From NCBI GenBank assembly GCA_008501825.1, contig QQUA01000006.1:62001-126000 (forward strand): a stretch of DNA of 64,000 nucleotides, read 5' to 3'. A program made the position numbers and the translations under genes. The notes under the pieces were generated by a model. The model worked only from the letters and a program-made list of their open reading frames with translations. It made no database searches and was not told the DNA's origin. Below, piece by piece: positions 15,132 through 27,825 of this stretch; positions within the stretch are counted from its first letter, which is position 1, and each line of letters opens with the position of its first letter. Source of the stretch: Planctomycetota bacterium. Lineage in GTDB: Bacteria > Planctomycetota > UBA1135.

Positions 15132-18100
15132 TTACTCCTCTACTTCGAACTGGATCTCCCCGGAGTAGATTCCTCCGGACCAATCTCCTTTCCGCCGCGC
15201 GAACCGGTTTACGTCGGGAAAATACATCCTGAAGTAAGCCGTGTACCTGCCCGGTTCCAGGGCAGCCTGATACACCACAGGATGCTCCATGGTTTTCCCT
15301 GATTCTTGCAGCAGTCCAAAAGAGGCCGATGAAAGCACAATCTCTTCCCCTGGCAAGAGTTCGTATCGATCGACTTCCACCGAGGAGGCATACCAATTCA
15401 AAGTAATGTCCACAAAACCTTCTCCTTCCTTGCGAATCTTCAAATTATCGTATTGCCGCCAAGGGCTGGATTCAAAGTTGATCGGCTCCTTACCGACGTT
15501 GCGCAAGACAAACTCCAAAGGTATTTGGTCCCCGGCCCGATAGGGCCCCTGTTGATTGGGGACGTGCAATCCGACTTGCAAGCCCTTTCTCTTTTTCCCC
15601 CACTGGATATTTCTTTCGTCATTCGGGTTCGGTTTTCTCCCGGTGTGAACCACTCTTTGGCTTGCCGCTGCGGACAACACCAAATCCAAGTCCTTGGTCC
15701 ATTCTTTCACGGTGATCTTGTTTTCGCCGGAAGTCAAATCCGCCACCAAAACAAGCCGAACGGTCCCGGGTTGACTGTAACTCACTATTTCTGAAGTCCA
15801 CTCCGGCTGGCCGGGAGCAATGCGAGCTTTAAAACGCCCCTTCCAATGAACCGGGACGCCGGAGAGTTCAAAAGTGCCAAAGGCGTCTGCAATGTCCGTG
15901 TCCAATACACTGCTGGAAGGAGGCAAGGAATCTCCCGTAATCGAGACTGGCCGAATCGGAAGAAGGCGCCCCTTTTCATCTAACAGCACCCCCTGCAAAC
16001 TCACCGAAGGAACCAGGACGAAGTCGATCCTCTGCGCCTTCTTCGGCAAAATCAATCGTGAGCGAATTTGCTCCAAGCTGCCCCAGGGCGTGTCTTCCTG
16101 CGGCAGTTCATCAGCAATCAGGCAATCTCCCGCCATACCCAGATTCAGTTCGGCAAAGCCACTTTTGATGACCGAAATCGTGGCGGCCTGAATTCCCGGG
16201 CCCCGCATGGCGGCGGAAAACTTCAAACGATAACGCCCGTCGGCGTCGGTTTGGACTTCTCCCGAATTCCTTAAGGTTCCAACTCCGGTAAAGGCGCGGA
16301 TGATCGCTCCTTGAACCGGTCGGCCTGCGGAATCCAAAACCCGACCTTGAACTTCATAAGGGTGCTCGCTCGGCGGCGAATCAGGAGTTTGAAGTTCCAA
16401 GTCCCCAAATAACCCGCCCGGATGACCCTTCAACGACGGAGGATCTTTGGCCACCACCGAGGCTGGCATGACCACGGCCGTGACCCTCTGGTCGATCCCC
16501 AGCTCGTCAATCCGAACCCTTGCGGAAACTCGCGAGCAATCCACCGAATAGGTCAGACTTCGCACTTGCCCCGGGATGGAGAACCGCTGCAGTTGCAAAG
16601 ATTTTTGCTCCGCCTCGGTGATGGTCAAATCCCCCTCAAATAAACCACTGGCGACGGCTCTTCGCGTCTCTTTTTGTTCCAATCCGGGAGCGGATAGGTG
16701 GAATCCCGCTTTGGCATCCGGAGTATCGAGGCGCTTTCCGTTCCGAATCCAAACCGCCGGGGCCATGGCAATGGTCATCTTTTGTTGGCGGAGAAAGCGC
16801 CGGCCAAATTGGAACCAATTCGGCTTCCCGGTGATCCAAGGTGAATATGAAAAGGACTCGGTCTGGTCATCAACGCCGGGCCGGAAGATAAAACGATGCC
16901 CAACTTTGGCATCCAACAAATCGGCGGCTTTGACGGCTTCCTCAAAGGAAGTGAAAGGACCCCCTTGAATGCCGTTGACGATAATCATCCACTTTCCTGG
17001 ATACCGTTCCCTCCAGGTGCTGTGAACTTGGCGATAGGCTTTCTGATTCATCGCCCTAGCTTCTTCCAGATTCCAAACCTTCGAATCCTGACGGATTTCG
17101 ACCGGATCCGCTGCGCCGGCGGTGGCGGTGGCTTTGGGAGCAATCATCAAGCCGGCCATGACCGCCATGACCAGGAAGGCAGCCCAAGTAGATACCGGCC
17201 AAGGTTGGCGGAAGGACCTGTCCTGGCCGCTCAATCGTCGAATGCGGCGCACCAGACTGCCTCCGTCAGCGGCGGCCACCGCCCACGGCAAGCCTTGACG
17301 ACGTCTTTCCAGGCGCTCCAGCGCACGCAAGTAGGGCAAACGATCTTCCGTTACGGCAACGACCATGTCGTCGCAACAGCGTTCTCGTTCCTCACGGACC
17401 ATCCGGCTCATCCACCAAACTGCGGGATGATGGAAGAAGAGCGCTTCCAGGAAGCTTTGCATGAGATTGACCACAGGATCCCAACGACGCAAGTGAGCCA
17501 ATTCATGGCAAAGAATGCTTTCAATTTCCCGGGGAGGAAAACCCGTCAGCGCCGAAACGGGAATCAAAATCACCGGCCGCCATATGCCGAGCACCATTGG
17601 CACGGTGGCCTTCGCCGAAGCAAAAACAGGCACCGGCCTAGGCAAGCCAAGGCGCTTGGCTAACCCTGAGACCATGAGTTGAAGCGAATGAGGAACCGGT
17701 TCGGTGGCCGAAGCCTTCAGCTTTCGAACCGTCCACCATCCCAACCAAGGTCGCAGGGACATCAACAAGGCCCCGCAAATCCAGATTCCGGCCAACCAAG
17801 GGAGCCAGGGGTTGAGCCAAGCCTGCCACCGGGAGCGCCGAGAAGGTGCTGGGGTATTCAATCTCGCAGCTCCAATTGCATCGGAACCAACAGAGTCATC
17901 CACGGACCCCAATTCAAAGGCATCCGGATTGGAGGGGAAAACTGGCTGACTCACGCTCGCTTGCATCAATCCAAAGACGTTTCCTGTTCCATGGTCCAGG
18001 AAATACCGCCAACTGATCCAAGGCGTGGTGAAAGCCAGCAGCAAGGCCACGCAACCCAAGCCATACCGGAGCCGGGCTTTTCGCTCCGGGACCACCCAGA

Positions 18101-18200
18101 GAGCCACTTTCAAAATCCCGGCAATGCAAAGAAGTTGCCAAAAGGAATGCAGCAAGACCCAGCCCATGGCTTGCAGAAACTCTTGATCGGGCCACCTCAT
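15132..18200 (-). CDS. M56 (BlaR1/MecR1-like) membrane metalloprotease with long outer domain
   Basis: The 1022-residue protein has an N-terminal membrane part with about four helices and the zinc motif HELAH at 232-236, followed by WMSRMVREERERCCDD, as in BlaR1-type peptidases. After the last helix (about 340-360) comes a region with a carboxypeptidase-regulatory-like beta domain (YEVQGRVLDSAGRPVQG) and a further beta-rich end (PLEFVLRNVGKEPINFES). By family logic it senses an outside signal and cuts or releases the BlaI repressor encoded just before it; the two overlap by four bases. No penicillin-binding sensor domain is seen, so the signal is probably not a beta-lactam. Confidence 0.88.
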   Translation of the reverse strand: MRWPDQEFLQAMGWVLLHSFWQLLCIAGILKVALWVVPERKARLRYGLGCVALLLAFTTPWISWRYFLDHGTGNVFGLMQASVSQPVFPSNPDAFELGSVDDSVGSDAIGAARLNTPAPSRRSRWQAWLNPWLPWLAGIWICGALLMSLRPWLGWWTVRKLKASATEPVPHSLQLMVSGLAKRLGLPRPVPVFASAKATVPMVLGIWRPVILIPVSALTGFPPREIESILCHELAHLRRWDPVVNLMQSFLEALFFHHPAVWWMSRMVREERERCCDDMVVAVTEDRLPYLRALERLERRRQGLPWAVAAADGGSLVRRIRRLSGQDRSFRQPWPVSTWAAFLVMAVMAGLMIAPKATATAGAADPVEIRQDSKVWNLEEARAMNQKAYRQVHSTWRERYPGKWMIIVNGIQGGPFTSFEEAVKAADLLDAKVGHRFIFRPGVDDQTESFSYSPWITGKPNWFQFGRRFLRQQKMTIAMAPAVWIRNGKRLDTPDAKAGFHLSAPGLEQKETRRAVASGLFEGDLTITEAEQKSLQLQRFSIPGQVRSLTYSVDCSRVSARVRIDELGIDQRVTAVVMPASVVAKDPPSLKGHPGGLFGDLELQTPDSPPSEHPYEVQGRVLDSAGRPVQGAIIRAFTGVGTLRNSGEVQTDADGRYRLKFSAAMRGPGIQAATISVIKSGFAELNLGMAGDCLIADELPQEDTPWGSLEQIRSRLILPKKAQRIDFVLVPSVSLQGVLLDEKGRLLPIRPVSITGDSLPPSSSVLDTDIADAFGTFELSGVPVHWKGRFKARIAPGQPEWTSEIVSYSQPGTVRLVLVADLTSGENKITVKEWTKDLDLVLSAAASQRVVHTGRKPNPNDERNIQWGKKRKGLQVGLHVPNQQGPYRAGDQIPLEFVLRNVGKEPINFESSPWRQYDNLKIRKEGEGFVDITLNWYASSVEVDRYELLPGEEIVLSSASFGLLQESGKTMEHPVVYQAALEPGRYTAYFRMYFPDVNRFARRKGDWSGGIYSGEIQFEVEE

Positions 18201-18592
18201 GCGTTCCCCTCCTTGGCTTCCAAGTCCTCAATGAGTGCTCTTATCTCAGTTAAATCCTCTGATTCGGCTTCCTTGCTGGATAGTGCCTGCAACACAAGTG
18301 CTTTCAGAGAGCCTCCGTAAACCGTGTCCACCATCCGCCGCAGCATTTTCCTTTGCACGACCGGGCGAGTATGGGCGGCTTGAAATACTTGAGGTCGCAC
18401 CGAATCGTCCCGCGCCACCAATTGCTTTTCCAACATGACTCCCAACATCTTTACGGTGGTGGAATAGTTGGTGCTTTTCATCGCTTGAAGCGCTTCGTGA
18501 ACTTGTCGGGCGGTGGACGGACCCCGTTCCCACAAAATGCGCAGGATTTGTAATTCAACTTCGGTCGGTTCGCTGGCAGGAGGTCGAGACAT
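18197..18592 (-). CDS. BlaI/MecI/CopY-family transcriptional repressor
   Basis: This 131-residue protein is a typical BlaI family member: a winged helix (EPTEVELQILRILWERG then TARQVHEAL and STTVKMLGVMLEK) and a helical dimerisation end (LKALVLQALSS). It would bind as a dimer to an inverted repeat and repress its own operon until the M56 protease inactivates it. The stop overlaps the protease start (ATGA). Two dyads lie over its predicted promoter. Confidence 0.9.
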   Translation of the reverse strand: MSRPPASEPTEVELQILRILWERGPSTARQVHEALQAMKSTNYSTTVKMLGVMLEKQLVARDDSVRPQVFQAAHTRPVVQRKMLRRMVDTVYGGSLKALVLQALSSKEAESEDLTEIRALIEDLEAKEGNA

Positions 18593-18658
18593 GAAAGTAC
18601 TCCGAATTGACTTCCCAGGAGTTCGGGGCCGGAGACCGACCTTGTGAGGGAAGCAGCT

Positions 18659-18678
18659 TTAGCGAAATCCTTCGCTAC
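18659..18678. promoter_or_regulatory. Candidate BlaI operator 1
   Basis: AGCGAA at 18661-18666, four bases, TTCGCT at 18671-18676: a perfect 6-bp inverted repeat with TT before it. On the minus strand it lies at the predicted transcription start of blaI. It differs from the usual BlaI core TACA-N2-TGTA. Confidence 0.6.
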
Positions 18679-18684
18679 TCCCCC

Positions 18685-18713
18685 ATTCTTGGCGAATTCT
18701 TTCGCTAAGTCAA
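18685..18713 (-). promoter_or_regulatory. Predicted promoter of blaI-M56 operon
   Basis: On the minus strand TTGACT (18713-18708), a 17-base spacer, and AAGAAT (18690-18685). The -35 box matches 5 of 6 and the -10 box 4 of 6 of the sigma-70 consensus. Operator 2 lies within the spacer and operator 1 just downstream, the layout expected for an autorepressed promoter. Confidence 0.5.
18689..18708. promoter_or_regulatory. Candidate BlaI operator 2
   Basis: GGCGAA at 18691-18696, four bases, TTCGCT at 18701-18706: the same dyad as operator 1 with one changed base, centred 30 bp away, about three helical turns. It fills the spacer between the -35 and -10 boxes of the predicted blaI promoter. Confidence 0.6.
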
Positions 18714-18773
18714 GGCCCGAAGCTCGATTTCTCTCGTTACCCCCCCCTTGCCCCCCTCAGTACATTGGAAACC

Positions 18774-18811
18774 GGCCGAAAGAATCGGCGGGCCTCGCCA
18801 ATTTTTCGGCC
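18774..18811 (+). promoter_or_regulatory. Long hairpin in the leader of the propeller/DUF1080 gene
   Basis: Bases 18774-18783 pair with 18802-18811 (ten pairs including one G-T), then after one mismatch and one bulged C, GGCG at 18787-18790 pairs with CGCC at 18796-18799 around a five-base loop. It ends 19 bases before the ATG at 18831. No T-run follows on either strand, so it looks like a leader structure and not a terminator. Confidence 0.5.
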
Positions 18812-18830
18812 AAATCACCGAATCAACCCC

Positions 18831-21815
18831 ATGACCCTCCTCCTTCTGCTCAGCCTCCTCCTGAGCCCCCAATCCGGCCAAGAGGAAGATTATTACCGAG
18901 TCGATTATCTCGAGCCTCCCGCCGGAGCCATTGTGGAGGTGGGCGGAATGGACTTTCTCCCGGATGGGCGGCTGGCGGTCTCCACTCGCCGGGGTCAGGT
19001 TTGGCTGGTGGAAAATCCGTTGGCCGAAGACCCCAAGCAAGCCCGCTTTCAACTATTCGCCGAAGGCTTGCAGGAGGGCTTGGGCCTCAAGGTGGTGGAG
19101 GGTGAGATTTACATCGTGCAAAGAGGGGAACTTTCGCGCCTGATCGACCTGGACGGCGACGGGCGCTGCGATCGCATCGATTGCCTACAAAACGGCTGGG
19201 GCCTTTCCGGAAACTACCATGAATTTGCCTTCGGCCTGCCGGTGGACGCAGACGGCAATTTTTACGTTAGCTTGAACGTGGCCTTTTTCTCGCCGAAGTG
19301 GTGGGCCGGAAAAGCTCCGGTTCCCTACCGCGGTTGGGTCTTGAAAATCTCTCCTCAAGGGGAGATGACTCCTTTGGCATTCGGTTTACGCAGTCCCTGC
19401 GGCATCGGCTTGAACGCTGAAGGAGATTTGTTCGTGACCGACAATCAGGGAGATTGGATGCCGGTATGCCCCCTGTTTCACATCCAGGAAGGTGGCTTTT
19501 ATGGACACCCGGCTTCCCTCGATTGGACGCCGGCCTACCGCAAAAGTTTGACTTTGGCCAGCGACACGATTCCCAGCGCTCACCCGAGGCGTCCCGCGGC
19601 TCTTTGGATTCCCTACAAATGGTCGCGGTCTACCGGCAATATGGTCCCGGACATGACCGGAGGTCGATTCGGACCTTTCGACAAGCAACTTTTCCTTGGG
19701 GAAGTCACCAATGGCATGGTGCTCCGCGCCGACCTGGAAAAGGTCCGGAGAGAATATCAAGGAGCGGTTTGGCCCTTCCGCCAAAAAGTTGGCTCCACTT
19801 GCCGGGTCCGATTTGCCGAAGACGGCACTTTATTCTGCGGCATGACCAACCGGGGTTGGGGTGGCTTGGCCCCGGGCCATGGCATTGCCCGCGTCCGCTG
19901 GACCGGGAAGACCCCTTTAGAAGCCTCGGAAGTGCGTTTGCAGCAAGACGGCTTTCGCATTCGTTTCACCAAAGCTTTGGACCCGTCAAGCGTAGATCCC
20001 AATCAATTCCTGATCGAACAATATGATTACGACTATTGGTGGGAGTACGGCTCCCCCGAAAGGCACACTGAAAAGGTCGTCCTTTCCGCCATAAGCCTGG
20101 AAGAAAACCAGCACGTCCTTCGTTTGTTTACCGCTGGAATGAAGCCAGCACGGGTGGTCCGGGTGATCACCCCCGGCCTGCGTGCCGAAGACGGAAGCCC
20201 TTTACTGCACCCGGAATTTGCATACACCTTGAATCAATTTCCACAAGGGCCGCTCACGGAGGAGCATATTGCCAAGATCGTGCCCCCGCCTCCTCCTCGG
20301 GACATCGAATTGGAGGGTTGGATGCGTTTGACCTGGGCGGATGCCATGGATGCGTGGCAATGCGAAGGCTGGCAACTTTGCGATGCCGAGATCGACCTCA
20401 AGCATCCGGAACAATTCAAAACCATGCCTGGAAACGGGGCCTTAATCAACGTAGGCAAAGGCCCTTCCTCCAATTATCAAAGTCGATACTCCTTCTCAGA
20501 TATGGAACTGGAGTTGGACTTCATGCTTCCCCGAGGCGGAGAGTCCGGCATTTACCTCATGGGCTGCTATGAAATTCAATTGCGCGATCAAAGTTCCCAA
20601 GGCGACCCAGCAGCCTCCGATTGCGGCGGCGTGACCCCCTCCGGCTCGTGGCCCGGCCGTCCTCCGGCAATCTCGGTTTACCAAGGCCCGGGAGTTTGGC
20701 ACAGCCTCAAGATTCGCTTTGAGGCGCCGCGCTTCGATCACGACGGCAGCAAAAAGCGCAACGCCCGCTTATCCAGAGTCATTCTTAACGATACGGTCAT
20801 TCACCAAAACGTCGCGCTTCCCGGGCCAACCGACGGCGCTCCAGTTTCATCGGAGCGGCCGTTTGGCCCGATCGTCATTGAAGGAACGTCAGGACCGGTC
20901 GCCATTCGCGGTGTGATGGTGAAACCCATTCACTCACAAAAGGATGAAGATGGTTGGGTGGACCTCTTCAATGGAGAAGACTTGGACGGCTGGAAAACCA
21001 GCGGCAAGGCGAATTGGAGCGTGGAAGACTACGCCATTATCGGGCAAGGAGACATGGGGCACCTTTACAGTCCCCGAAACGACTATCGGAACTTTGAATT
21101 CCGAGCCAGGGTCAAGATTAACGACGGCGGAAACTCAGGAATGTATTTCCGGACCGCCTACGGTGAGGGCTGGCCCAAGGGATATGAAGCTCAAGTCAAC
21201 AGCAGTTTTCCAGATCCCCAGAAAAGCGGCTCCCTTTATGGATTGGCCCCGATCAAAGTCCACTTGATTCCAACGGATACTTGGTTCACCCAATACGTCC
21301 GGTGCGTTGAGGAGCCGGAGGGAACCCGGATCAGCATTCGAATTAACGACATTTTGGTCAGTGAGTATCTGGACAAGGAAAGGCGCCATGCTTCGGGGCA
21401 TTTCGCCTTGCAACAACATCACCAGGGCTCGGTAGTGGAATACATGGACGTGCAGGTTCGAGAAATCCTCGGGCTGCAGCCCTCCGATCTATTAGGTCGC
21501 TGGACTTCCGGCCCTGCAGAAAGCCGACAGGTTCTGGTTTTTCAAGAAGACGGCAAAGGAGAGTGGATCTTCCAAACACCGCAAGGAAGCTCAAGCCTTG
21601 AAGTGACTTGGACATTGGATGCTTCGGTTCTGCCCGCCCGATTGGACATCGGAGGCATCCATCAAGGACCGCTTCGAGGCATGACCTTGTTCGGGATCGC
21701 CAAACTGGAACATGGCGCCCTTTTCCTGGACGCCGAGCCGGCCCCACAGGACTCCAATGGTGATGCGACGCGCCCACGGGAGTTTTCCGCCGAGACATTG
21801 AAGTTTCAGCGCTGA
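18831..21815 (+). CDS. Exported sugar-dehydrogenase-like propeller with two DUF1080 domains and a TIGR03067-like end
   Basis: From the ATG at 18831 there are 994 residues: a signal peptide; a six-bladed propeller of the glucose/sorbosone dehydrogenase type (about 20-400, with PDGRLAVSTRRGQVW, GLRSPCGIGLN and TDNQGDWMP); a first DUF1080 lectin-like domain (about 490-700, GGESGIYLMGCYEIQLRD); a second (about 705-880, WVDLFNGEDLDGW and GGNSGMYFRT); and a C-terminal domain (about 890-994, LLGRWTSGP) like a planctomycete TIGR03067 domain. Some DUF1080 proteins act on 3-keto-glycosides. One chain could therefore bind or oxidise a sugar and then cleave it; that is inference. The frame is open from 18765, but the signal peptide fixes the start. 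Confidence 0.82.
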   Translation: MTLLLLLSLLLSPQSGQEEDYYRVDYLEPPAGAIVEVGGMDFLPDGRLAVSTRRGQVWLVENPLAEDPKQARFQLFAEGLQEGLGLKVVEGEIYIVQRGELSRLIDLDGDGRCDRIDCLQNGWGLSGNYHEFAFGLPVDADGNFYVSLNVAFFSPKWWAGKAPVPYRGWVLKISPQGEMTPLAFGLRSPCGIGLNAEGDLFVTDNQGDWMPVCPLFHIQEGGFYGHPASLDWTPAYRKSLTLASDTIPSAHPRRPAALWIPYKWSRSTGNMVPDMTGGRFGPFDKQLFLGEVTNGMVLRADLEKVRREYQGAVWPFRQKVGSTCRVRFAEDGTLFCGMTNRGWGGLAPGHGIARVRWTGKTPLEASEVRLQQDGFRIRFTKALDPSSVDPNQFLIEQYDYDYWWEYGSPERHTEKVVLSAISLEENQHVLRLFTAGMKPARVVRVITPGLRAEDGSPLLHPEFAYTLNQFPQGPLTEEHIAKIVPPPPPRDIELEGWMRLTWADAMDAWQCEGWQLCDAEIDLKHPEQFKTMPGNGALINVGKGPSSNYQSRYSFSDMELELDFMLPRGGESGIYLMGCYEIQLRDQSSQGDPAASDCGGVTPSGSWPGRPPAISVYQGPGVWHSLKIRFEAPRFDHDGSKKRNARLSRVILNDTVIHQNVALPGPTDGAPVSSERPFGPIVIEGTSGPVAIRGVMVKPIHSQKDEDGWVDLFNGEDLDGWKTSGKANWSVEDYAIIGQGDMGHLYSPRNDYRNFEFRARVKINDGGNSGMYFRTAYGEGWPKGYEAQVNSSFPDPQKSGSLYGLAPIKVHLIPTDTWFTQYVRCVEEPEGTRISIRINDILVSEYLDKERRHASGHFALQQHHQGSVVEYMDVQVREILGLQPSDLLGRWTSGPAESRQVLVFQEDGKGEWIFQTPQGSSSLEVTWTLDASVLPARLDIGGIHQGPLRGMTLFGIAKLEHGALFLDAEPAPQDSNGDATRPREFSAETLKFQR

Positions 21816-24642: not shown

Positions 24643-27600
24643 ATGATCCTCCCCCTTTTCCTGGCGCTCGTGGCCTGCCCCCGCGCCCCCCAAGAAGGGT
24701 GGCAGCCCTTAATTCAGGGGCGAAGTATGCCGGGCTGGACTTCCCATGGAACCGCCAGCTTCAAGTGGCGGGATGGATTGTTAACGGCAACCTCCCGGGA
24801 CCGGACTTTAAGTTGGCTGGTTTACGAGCATCCGTTCGGAGATTTCCAACTGGAGGTTGAGTTCAAAGCCATTCGGGGCAATTCTGGAATTCAGTTCCGA
24901 AGCCGACATCCGTCCGGCCGCCCCATGGTGGGTTTACAAGTGGAGATTGACGCCGATCCTCAAGGGGCCAGCGGCGGCTTATACGACCAAAGCCGGCGCG
25001 GTTGGTTACAGGCTCCCAGCAAGGAAGCAAGCGAAGGTTTTCAAGCGCGTGAGTGGAATCGATTAAGAGTTCGATGCCAGGGCGACCACGTTCAAACCTG
25101 GCTGAATGATCGACTCGCCGCCGATTTCCGCGACTCCGCCGCCCTGGAGGGTGTTTTGGCCCTTCAGGTTTTTGGCGCTGGGACGGAAGTTCACTTTCGC
25201 AATTTGCGGATTTTGGATTTAGGACGAAGCCGTTGGCGCACTCTCTTCAATGGTGAAAATATGACCGGCTGGCGGCCGGTCGGCGGTGGGCGCTGGGAAT
25301 TAAAAGACGGTGTGTTGCTCGGCCTTCATGAGAAGAAGGATCCAGATTACGGACACCTGGTTTTCGAGGAAGTCCTGGGAGACTTCACGGCTCGAGTTCG
25401 TTTCCGAGCCCGGATGGGTAATAGTGGTTTGTATTTCCGGGCCGAGGAAGCCGGCGCCAGCGGCATGAGCGGCATGCAGGCGGAAATCGATCCAAGGCGG
25501 CGAACTGGAGGCTTGTATGAAACCAACGGCCGGCAATGGATCATCATTCCCAATGCGGAGGATTTGGAAGCTTGGTTTCGTGCCGGTAAATGGAATTTAC
25601 TCACCGTCTCGGCCCACGGCCCAAACCTTCACGTAGCCTTGAACGGCCGCCAGACTGCCGCTCTGTTCGATGACAAGGGGCGAAAAAGCGGTCGCCTGGC
25701 TTTGCAATTGCACGGGAGTGAGGACGTTTTCCTGGAAGTCGCCGAAGTGGAAATCCTGGAAAAGGATCGATCTTTGCAAGTTCTCCCTTCCACTCAGGAG
25801 TTTAAAGATTCCCGCTTGGAATCTGTGGTCACTTTGGAAGGCGTCCACCCGTGGTATCCGACCTCCGATTCGGAATCTTGGCAGAAACGGTCGCAAGAAC
25901 TCCGGCGGCAAATCCTGGTCGCTGCCGGTCTATGGCCGGAACCGCCGCGGATGGCTGTGGAAGCCAAAATCCATGGAATGGTGGTTCGCCAAGGCTACAC
26001 GGTGGAGAAGGTTTATTTTCAAAGCCTGCCCGGGCATTACGTCACCGGCAATCTCTATCGGCCGATCGGTCCTCCTGGCAAAAAGCCCGGCATCCTCAGC
26101 CCTCACGGCCATTGGACCCATGGCCGCTTTTTACAACGCACCAAAGCCGATGCTGAAAAGGAAATCGCCGCTGGGGCGGAGAAATTCCTAACCAATGCCC
26201 GCTATCCGCTGCAAGCACGCTGTGCCCAATTGGCCCGGATGGGTTGTATCGTGTTTCACTACGACATGGTCGGTTACGGTGATTCTCAAGCTCTATCTCA
26301 TGGAGCAGGATTCGAAGACGCCGCCGCCGGCTTGAGGGGGCAAAGTGCGTTCGGACTGCAGACGTTGAATTCAATCCGAGCGCTGGACTTCTTGGAGGCT
26401 TTGCCCGACGTCGATCCCGATCGCTTAGGGGTCACAGGAGCCAGCGGAGGAGGAACTCAAAGCTTCATCTTGGCGGCGATCGATCCTCGCATTCAGGCGG
26501 CTTTCCCTGCAGTGATGGTTTCAGCCGACATGCAGGGAGGTTGTGTATGCGAAAACGCTCATCACTTGCGGGTCGATACCAGCAACATTGAATTGGCGGC
26601 TCTTATCGCTCCACGGCCCCTTGGACTGACCGGGGCGAATGACTGGACCTTGCACTTGGAAGAAAGAGGCATTCCGCAGCTAAAAGCTCTTTATCAAGCC
26701 TTGGGAGTGCCGGAGAACTTCGAGGCTTGGGTACATCCGGAATTCGGCCACAATTACAACCAAGTCTCGCGGGAGCACCTTTACGCGTTCATGAATCGCC
26801 ATTTGCATCTCGGCCTGCCCGAACCGGTTGAAGAAAGCTCGATCGAACCGATACTTCCCGGAGACTTGAGCGTATTCGATGAAAGCGAACACTCTGTACC
26901 CAAAGATTCCATAACTGCAAGCGGGGTGCGCACGGTATTGGAAGCTTGGTCGAATCAGCAGCTAAATCGCCTTAGTCCTCGGACTCAAGCCGACTGGGAA
27001 ACCTTTCAAAGCGTCATTGGCGGAGCTTTAAAAAGCATGTTGCACACCCGGCTTCCGGAGCCGGGCACGATCGAAACCCAAGATCTTGGAAAAGAAAACC
27101 GCGATGGCTTTCAGTTTCAAAAACTAGTGCTCCGCCGCGTCGGCTATCAAGAAGTGATTCCAGCCGCCCTGCTGATGCCGGAGGAATGGAACGGCCGCCT
27201 CATCGTCGCCGCTTCCCCGGGAGGAAAAGAAGATTTCTTCCGCTTTCGACAAAGGACGATTTTGGATGTCAAACCGATTCTTGAGACGGGAACCGCTCTG
27301 CTGATGCCAGATTTGTTCCTAACCGGCGAACTGGCGGACTCTGCACCCCAACTACCGATCGATTCGGCCCGGCACTCCCGCTATGACGGATACAGCTACG
27401 GCTATAACCGCACCCTCATGGCTCATCGAGTTCACGACTTGCTGATTTGCCTGGCTTTCGCACGAGATCTCCCTGGAGTTCACAGAGTAGATCTTTTCGG
27501 CCGCAACCAATTCGGCTTGGTTGCTTTGCTGGCTCGTGGACTTGCCGGCGACGCCGTGAACAAAACGCTGGTGCATTGGCCGATGGATTTTCGGGACGTC

Positions 27601-27825
27601 CAGAGCACGAACGACCCGAGCTATTTGCCCGGAGCGGTCCGCTATGGAGACGTAACCGCCTTTGCCGCTCTTTGCGCTCCCCACCCCTTGCGGTTGATTA
27701 GTGACCGCAGCTTGCCGAACCTCTGCCAAGAAACATACCTGGCCGCCAATCACCCGCTGGAGATTGGAGTATTCCGAAATCAGGACTGGGCGGAGGCTCG
27801 AACCTGGTTCCACCTGCCGAATTAA
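24643..27825 (+). CDS. Exported DUF1080 x2 plus tandem alpha/beta hydrolase protein
   Basis: The 1060-residue protein starts with a short signal peptide. Two DUF1080 domains follow (about 18-190, with NSGIQFRSRH; and about 195-380, with LFNGENMTGWRP and NSGLYFRAEE). Then comes an alpha/beta hydrolase (about 400-740) of the acetyl-xylan-esterase-like type with ILSPHGHW, nucleophile Ser near 600 in GASGGG, acid near GANDWT, and His near 702 in FGHNYN. A second hydrolase-like half (about 800-1060) has FGRNQFGL where GxSxG is expected, so it lacks the serine. It probably acts on glycan or acyl-sugar substrates outside the cytoplasm. Confidence 0.82.
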   Translation: MILPLFLALVACPRAPQEGWQPLIQGRSMPGWTSHGTASFKWRDGLLTATSRDRTLSWLVYEHPFGDFQLEVEFKAIRGNSGIQFRSRHPSGRPMVGLQVEIDADPQGASGGLYDQSRRGWLQAPSKEASEGFQAREWNRLRVRCQGDHVQTWLNDRLAADFRDSAALEGVLALQVFGAGTEVHFRNLRILDLGRSRWRTLFNGENMTGWRPVGGGRWELKDGVLLGLHEKKDPDYGHLVFEEVLGDFTARVRFRARMGNSGLYFRAEEAGASGMSGMQAEIDPRRRTGGLYETNGRQWIIIPNAEDLEAWFRAGKWNLLTVSAHGPNLHVALNGRQTAALFDDKGRKSGRLALQLHGSEDVFLEVAEVEILEKDRSLQVLPSTQEFKDSRLESVVTLEGVHPWYPTSDSESWQKRSQELRRQILVAAGLWPEPPRMAVEAKIHGMVVRQGYTVEKVYFQSLPGHYVTGNLYRPIGPPGKKPGILSPHGHWTHGRFLQRTKADAEKEIAAGAEKFLTNARYPLQARCAQLARMGCIVFHYDMVGYGDSQALSHGAGFEDAAAGLRGQSAFGLQTLNSIRALDFLEALPDVDPDRLGVTGASGGGTQSFILAAIDPRIQAAFPAVMVSADMQGGCVCENAHHLRVDTSNIELAALIAPRPLGLTGANDWTLHLEERGIPQLKALYQALGVPENFEAWVHPEFGHNYNQVSREHLYAFMNRHLHLGLPEPVEESSIEPILPGDLSVFDESEHSVPKDSITASGVRTVLEAWSNQQLNRLSPRTQADWETFQSVIGGALKSMLHTRLPEPGTIETQDLGKENRDGFQFQKLVLRRVGYQEVIPAALLMPEEWNGRLIVAASPGGKEDFFRFRQRTILDVKPILETGTALLMPDLFLTGELADSAPQLPIDSARHSRYDGYSYGYNRTLMAHRVHDLLICLAFARDLPGVHRVDLFGRNQFGLVALLARGLAGDAVNKTLVHWPMDFRDVQSTNDPSYLPGAVRYGDVTAFAALCAPHPLRLISDRSLPNLCQETYLAANHPLEIGVFRNQDWAEARTWFHLPN

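Follow-up and report, generated by a model that had tools for sequence, protein, structure and literature searches.

Planctomycetota and Bacteroidota are rich in BlaI/M56 systems, but most knowledge of these comes from staphylococcal resistance. For BlaR1/BlaI, inactivation of the repressor by the activated protease is established. The operator of BlaI and MecI has the core TACA-N2-TGTA, which gives a half-site of N1 T2 G3 T4 A5 when the bases are numbered outward from the centre. The cop box of CopY is RNYKACANNTGTMRNY, or N1 T2 G3 T4 M5 R6 N7 Y8 in the same numbering (PMC7253601). Motifs that lack TGTA were described by DAP-seq and EMSA for BlaI_0696 and BlaI_1845 of Clostridium thermocellum, both of which have very small regulons (PMC8457756). 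Correlation of binding motifs with protein sequence has been carried out for the GntR and IclR families (PMC4494728, PMC8222616). Neither TTCG operators nor a BlaI recognition code was found in the open literature that was searched.

The window, the whole 64-kb stretch of Planctomycetota DNA that was analysed, contains a blaI gene whose end is overlapped by 4 nt by an M56 metalloprotease gene (Table 1). By profile and alignment, the window BlaI belongs to the BlaI/MecI/CopY family. It matches Penicillinase_R (PF03965) with an E-value of 2e-23 and 83.2 bits against a curated cut-off of 22.6, and the structures 2g9w, 1sd6, 1okr and 1sd4 with E-values from 5e-15 to 2e-11; in the MecI alignment, its residues 44, 47, 48 and 52 correspond to MecI K43, R46, T47 and R51. 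TACA-N2-TGTA is not universal among the relatives surveyed, and a predicted operator without TGTA is therefore no bar to membership. The score against CopY_TcrY is 35.7 bits, below the cut-off of 122, and the C-terminal CxC of CopY-type proteins is not present, as the 131 residues include no cysteine.

As with BlaR1 and MecR1, the gene directly after blaI encodes an M56 metalloprotease with an HExxH motif, here HELAH, in a domain scoring 106.8 bits against PF05569. It differs from them in having a long C-terminal part with CarboxypepD_reg and no detected penicillin-binding sensor: no transpeptidase match was found in the window protein down to an E-value of 1, and its score against blaR1_generic is 75 bits, below the cut-off of 400. 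Since no penicillin-binding domain was found, the signal is probably not a β-lactam. The blaI-M56 arrangement is similar in six related loci. M56 genes that follow blaI genes of the window type are very long, encoding from 788 to 2588 aa (L352-L357), and the C-terminal parts of these long proteins are candidate sensors or effectors.

Table 1. Features of the blaI locus, in window coordinates
Feature	Position	Strand or placement	Basis
blaI, 131 aa, BlaI/MecI/CopY-family repressor (PF03965)	18197..18592	minus	domain profile; MecI/BlaI structures by profile
M56 metalloprotease gene, 1022 aa, HExxH, CarboxypepD_reg in C-terminal part	15132..18200	minus	domain profiles
Recognition helix, codons 42-55, NYSTTVKMLGVMLE; specificity residues N42, S44, V47, K48, V52	18428..18469	minus	MecI alignment and covariation
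Proximal dyad TAGCGAA-ATCC-TTCGCTA, TAGCGAAATCCTTCGCTA	18660..18677	over expected blaI start	sequence; kept in relatives
Distal dyad TGGCGAA-TTCT-TTCGCTA, TGGCGAATTCTTTCGCTA	18690..18707	fills -35/-10 spacer	sequence; kept in relatives
Predicted blaI promoter, TTGACT (18713-18708), 17 nt, AAGAAT (18690-18685)	18685..18713	minus	consensus match only

The earlier note had described two dyads on the blaI promoter, centred 30 bp apart, one filling the 17-base spacer between TTGACT and AAGAAT and the other covering the start. Both dyads lie at the positions it gave (Table 1), and a promoter scan agrees with the placement by consensus match. TTGACT-17-AAGAAT fits the consensus at 9 of 12 positions, where shuffles give an expectation of 0.0, and is the single promoter-like site in 18560-18860; it is σ70-like, points to blaI and would have the proximal dyad start near +1. 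The core as a single match is close to chance level; the pair is unusual. GCGAA-N4-TTCGC with up to one mismatch occurs 4 times in the window against 4.5 expected, and exact copies number 20 in the whole genome against 15 for a reversed control. The blaI-promoter pair is the sole pair of identical-arm 5-bp dyads (gap 0-10, 16-70 bp apart) in the 64 kb, while a Markov null gives a mean of 0.125 such pairs for any gap and 0.0 for gap 4.

The half-site of the window, read outward from the centre, is N1 N2 T3 T4 C5 G6 C7 T8. The predicted operator shares the register of the cop box and departs from it at positions 2-3. It resembles the BlaI/MecI and CopY operators, which are dyads, often two, at the promoter from which the repressor itself is expressed with its operon; T4 and Y8 of the cop box are kept, and C5 and G6 fall within its M and R. 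It differs from them in having T3 rather than G3 and no fixed base at position 2, so that TTCG replaces TGTA, and in the outer C7 T8. No TACA-N2-TGTA dyad was found on the window blaI promoter, where CGAA-N4-TTCG stands instead. The dissimilarity to the classical core that the earlier note pointed out is thus correct, yet BlaI motifs without TGTA had already been reported (PMC8457756). The C. thermocellum sites likewise form a set of two inverted repeats in front of the operon that encodes the repressor, but they consist of GTCTAT repeats 5 nt apart (G3 T4 C5, with an odd centre) and not of TTCG.

The dyads are retained in relatives. A DNA-only pattern of two GCGAA-N4-TTCGC dyads 6-34 bp apart matched 10 of 392 genomes of the phylum, against one match for the reversed pattern. 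In six of these ten, including that of the window, the pair lies upstream of a blaI gene encoding the helix YSTTVKML[SAG]VM; the search of related genomes that the earlier note proposed thus arrived at window-type blaI genes unaided. The matches at L179, L180, L186 and L188 are not beside blaI and were taken as noise. Completed by protein searches, the window-type set comprises 33 blaI genes with this helix. An exact CGAA-N4-TTCG lies within 300 bp of 31 of them, with at least two copies at 30; it is absent from all 33 coding stretches used as a control. The two genes without a dyad are L379, which is cut by the contig end, and L380, for which only about 200 bp of upstream sequence is available. 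The dyads are therefore present beside the orthologous blaI genes, on which the earlier note had made its claim depend.

A sister subfamily with the helix TTxLKxxQIM carries TACGAA-N4-TTCGTA (inner part ACGAA-N4-TTCGT) and is present in Bacteroidota, Acidobacteriota, Myxococcota, Verrucomicrobiota and Planctomycetota. Eighty loci from these phyla and others were retrieved with T[VTA]LK[LFM][ML]Q[IV]M as the helix pattern. An exact CGAA-N4-TTCG was found in 69 of 101 genes examined and two or more in 46, most of the others having one mismatch. Same-order relatives, at 36-48% identity, mostly have one to three upstream ACGAA-N4-TTCGT dyads. The sister type shares the core CGAA-N4-TTCG and the pairing of dyads with the window, and it occurs in the same genome as a paralogue (L055) with TACGAA-N4-TTCGTA and the blaI-M56 order. 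It differs at bases 7-8, which are mostly T-A rather than C-T, and in having Leu47 and Gln51 where the window type has Val47 and Ser, Gly or Ala51. Relative to the sister type, the window BlaI is diverged in two respects, its helix, NYSTTVKMLGVMLE, and bases 7-8 of its operator. The genome as a whole has eight full blaI genes, at least seven of them with promoter dyads, and the cores differ.

Tight helical phasing of the paired dyads is not claimed: spacings cluster overall at 21-24, 29-33 and 41-44 bp, and in the window type they are spread over 21-33 bp. In many sister loci (e.g., L101 and L110), operators and promoter hexamers look fused. At L101, L110, L116, L118 and L143, the distal dyad ends in a -35-like TTGA and the proximal dyad in a -10-like TATA, about 21 bp apart.

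Pairing of helix and operator extends across the family. For a sample of 295 distinct BlaI proteins, dyad pairs were called with no reference to the protein sequence, and 147 of 293 exceeded the 99% threshold from shuffled sequence. When all protein columns were compared with 10 operator positions, the highest mutual information was found for residue 52 with base 3, 48 with base 5, 47 with base 7 and 44 with base 7. These residues correspond to MecI R51, T47, R46 and K43, all of which are on the published list of DNA-binding residues (PMC2954202); Arg51 is described as sequence-specific in BlaI (PMC3506622). Over 106 helices, residue 52 tracks base 3 (Arg or Lys with G; Ile, Val or Leu with T), residue 48 tracks base 5 (Lys or Arg with C; Thr with A), and residues 42, 44 and 47 track base 7. 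Counted over distinct helices, T3 accompanies Ile, Val, Leu or Met at 52 in 64 of 69 cases and G3 accompanies Arg at 52 in 27 of 29; C5 accompanies Lys or Arg at 48 in 64 of 65. In the window-type genes, Asn42 is accompanied by C7 in all 110 half-sites and Thr42 by T7 in 11 of 20.

The association of residue 52 with base 3 holds outside the superclade of the window (Fisher p 2e-6), and it can be seen in contrasts such as AYNTVQT..NIL with TTAGG against AYNTVQT..GRL with GTAGG, or QIM with TTCG against QKM with GTCG. Applied to 137 genes outside the set from which it was made, 60 of them with a qualifying dyad, the 52/48 rule gave the correct core in 56 of the 60 (shuffled maximum 39) and the correct base 3 in 59 (shuffled maximum 47). 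The sequences are related and hence not independent. In a tree built with the helix masked, the class of residue 52 changes only about six times; the branches with strong support give just two independent pairs, both as expected in direction, a number too small for that test to reach significance by itself. Exceptions to the code exist, e.g., L326, L335 and L320. It is likely that one face of the recognition helix carries a simple residue-to-base code throughout the BlaI/MecI/CopY family (52 to 3, 48 to 5, and 42/44/47 to 7), that lineages with many BlaI-M56 switches rely on this code to separate several paralogous switches in one genome, and that most BlaI operators could therefore be predicted from sequence.

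L217 (G377) and L219 (G460) have QKM for QIM and TACGAC-N4-GTCGTA for TACGAA-N4-TTCGTA, a natural switch of one residue and one base. Another subfamily, VQNTVQAFLR[TLI]M (L022, L044, L090-L097), has single dyads of GCTTAA-N4-TTAAGC or C3 variants of it; the latter occur mostly with Thr52, possibly a further letter of the code.

The neighbouring BlaI very probably uses the dyads as its operators, and their position and conservation fit autorepression. One BlaI dimer would occupy the dyad in the -35/-10 spacer and another the dyad over the start, and the bound repressor would shut off the blaI-M56 operon. The membrane M56 protease, on sensing its signal, would then inactivate BlaI, by analogy with BlaR1/BlaI, and release the operon. 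The operator would depart from TACA-N2-TGTA because the window BlaI has a changed recognition helix: V52 (MecI Arg51) is expected to go with T3 instead of G3, K48 (MecI Thr47) with C5 instead of A5, and N42, S44 and V47 with C7-T8. The sequence, its conservation, the reciprocal pairing of helix and operator, their covariation and the out-of-sample prediction are observed; binding, repression, proteolytic release and the signal are inferred. We give this account as a whole a probability of about 0.9.

The dyads have been placed only upstream of the gene and binding by BlaI is itself predicted, which leaves room for binding by some other regulator under whose control blaI-M56 operons happen to be. 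Operator bases track BlaI helix residues across many families and phyla, however, and a third party would need to co-vary with BlaI, making this very improbable. Still less credible are leader RNA hairpins, acting as an attenuator or riboregulator. The proximal dyad, if transcribed, could form a 7-bp stem with a 4-nt loop, but the distal dyad, being placed between the -35 and -10 elements, would not be part of the transcript, and the arms are constrained base by base, co-varying with the protein. Chance palindromes might be suspected from the near-chance level of single GCGAA-N4-TTCGC in the genome; this reading has a negligible probability and is refuted by conservation, the pair being nearly absent from the null and kept at 31 of 33 orthologues.

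BlaI operators thus remain the preferred reading, and the site adds a new variant to the operators of the BlaI/MecI/CopY family. The earlier note had proposed a new operator class for a BlaI/M56 switch. A non-TGTA operator for such a switch is strongly supported by conservation; the term class goes too far for a site in register with the canonical one, which is one of several variants in the family set by helix residues. The family-wide code is more interesting than the single variant. With a residue-to-base rule, the operators and regulons of many uncharacterised BlaI proteins could be predicted. Such a rule would explain how one genome separates about eight BlaI switches and would yield a set of small repressors whose operators are distinct and predictable. 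The usual practice of searching for TACA-N2-TGTA alone is also corrected.

The divergent gene at 18831 encodes a 3-keto-disaccharide hydrolase (DUF1080) domain, with a weak match to a PVC-type heme-binding domain at the N-terminus. The dyad pair lies 124 bp upstream of its likely start, a distance in keeping with co-control, which the earlier note had suggested. This is not borne out: the neighbour of blaI differs among the six related loci, so that no DUF1080 neighbourhood is conserved across the relatives examined, and it differs again at the genome's own blaI paralogue; the one promoter-like site detected there is directed at blaI; and the genome showed no further copy of the pair between genes. 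Co-control is unlikely, and the DUF1080 gene is probably a bystander. A genome-wide regulon of GCGAA-N4-TTCGC was also rejected, as counts are about those of the reversed control and the best other site is within a likely gene. Close to the divergent gene (18831-21815) is a 1060-aa open reading frame (24643-27825), the N-terminal half of which resembles, by eye, two tandem DUF1080-type domains, followed by an esterase-like part.
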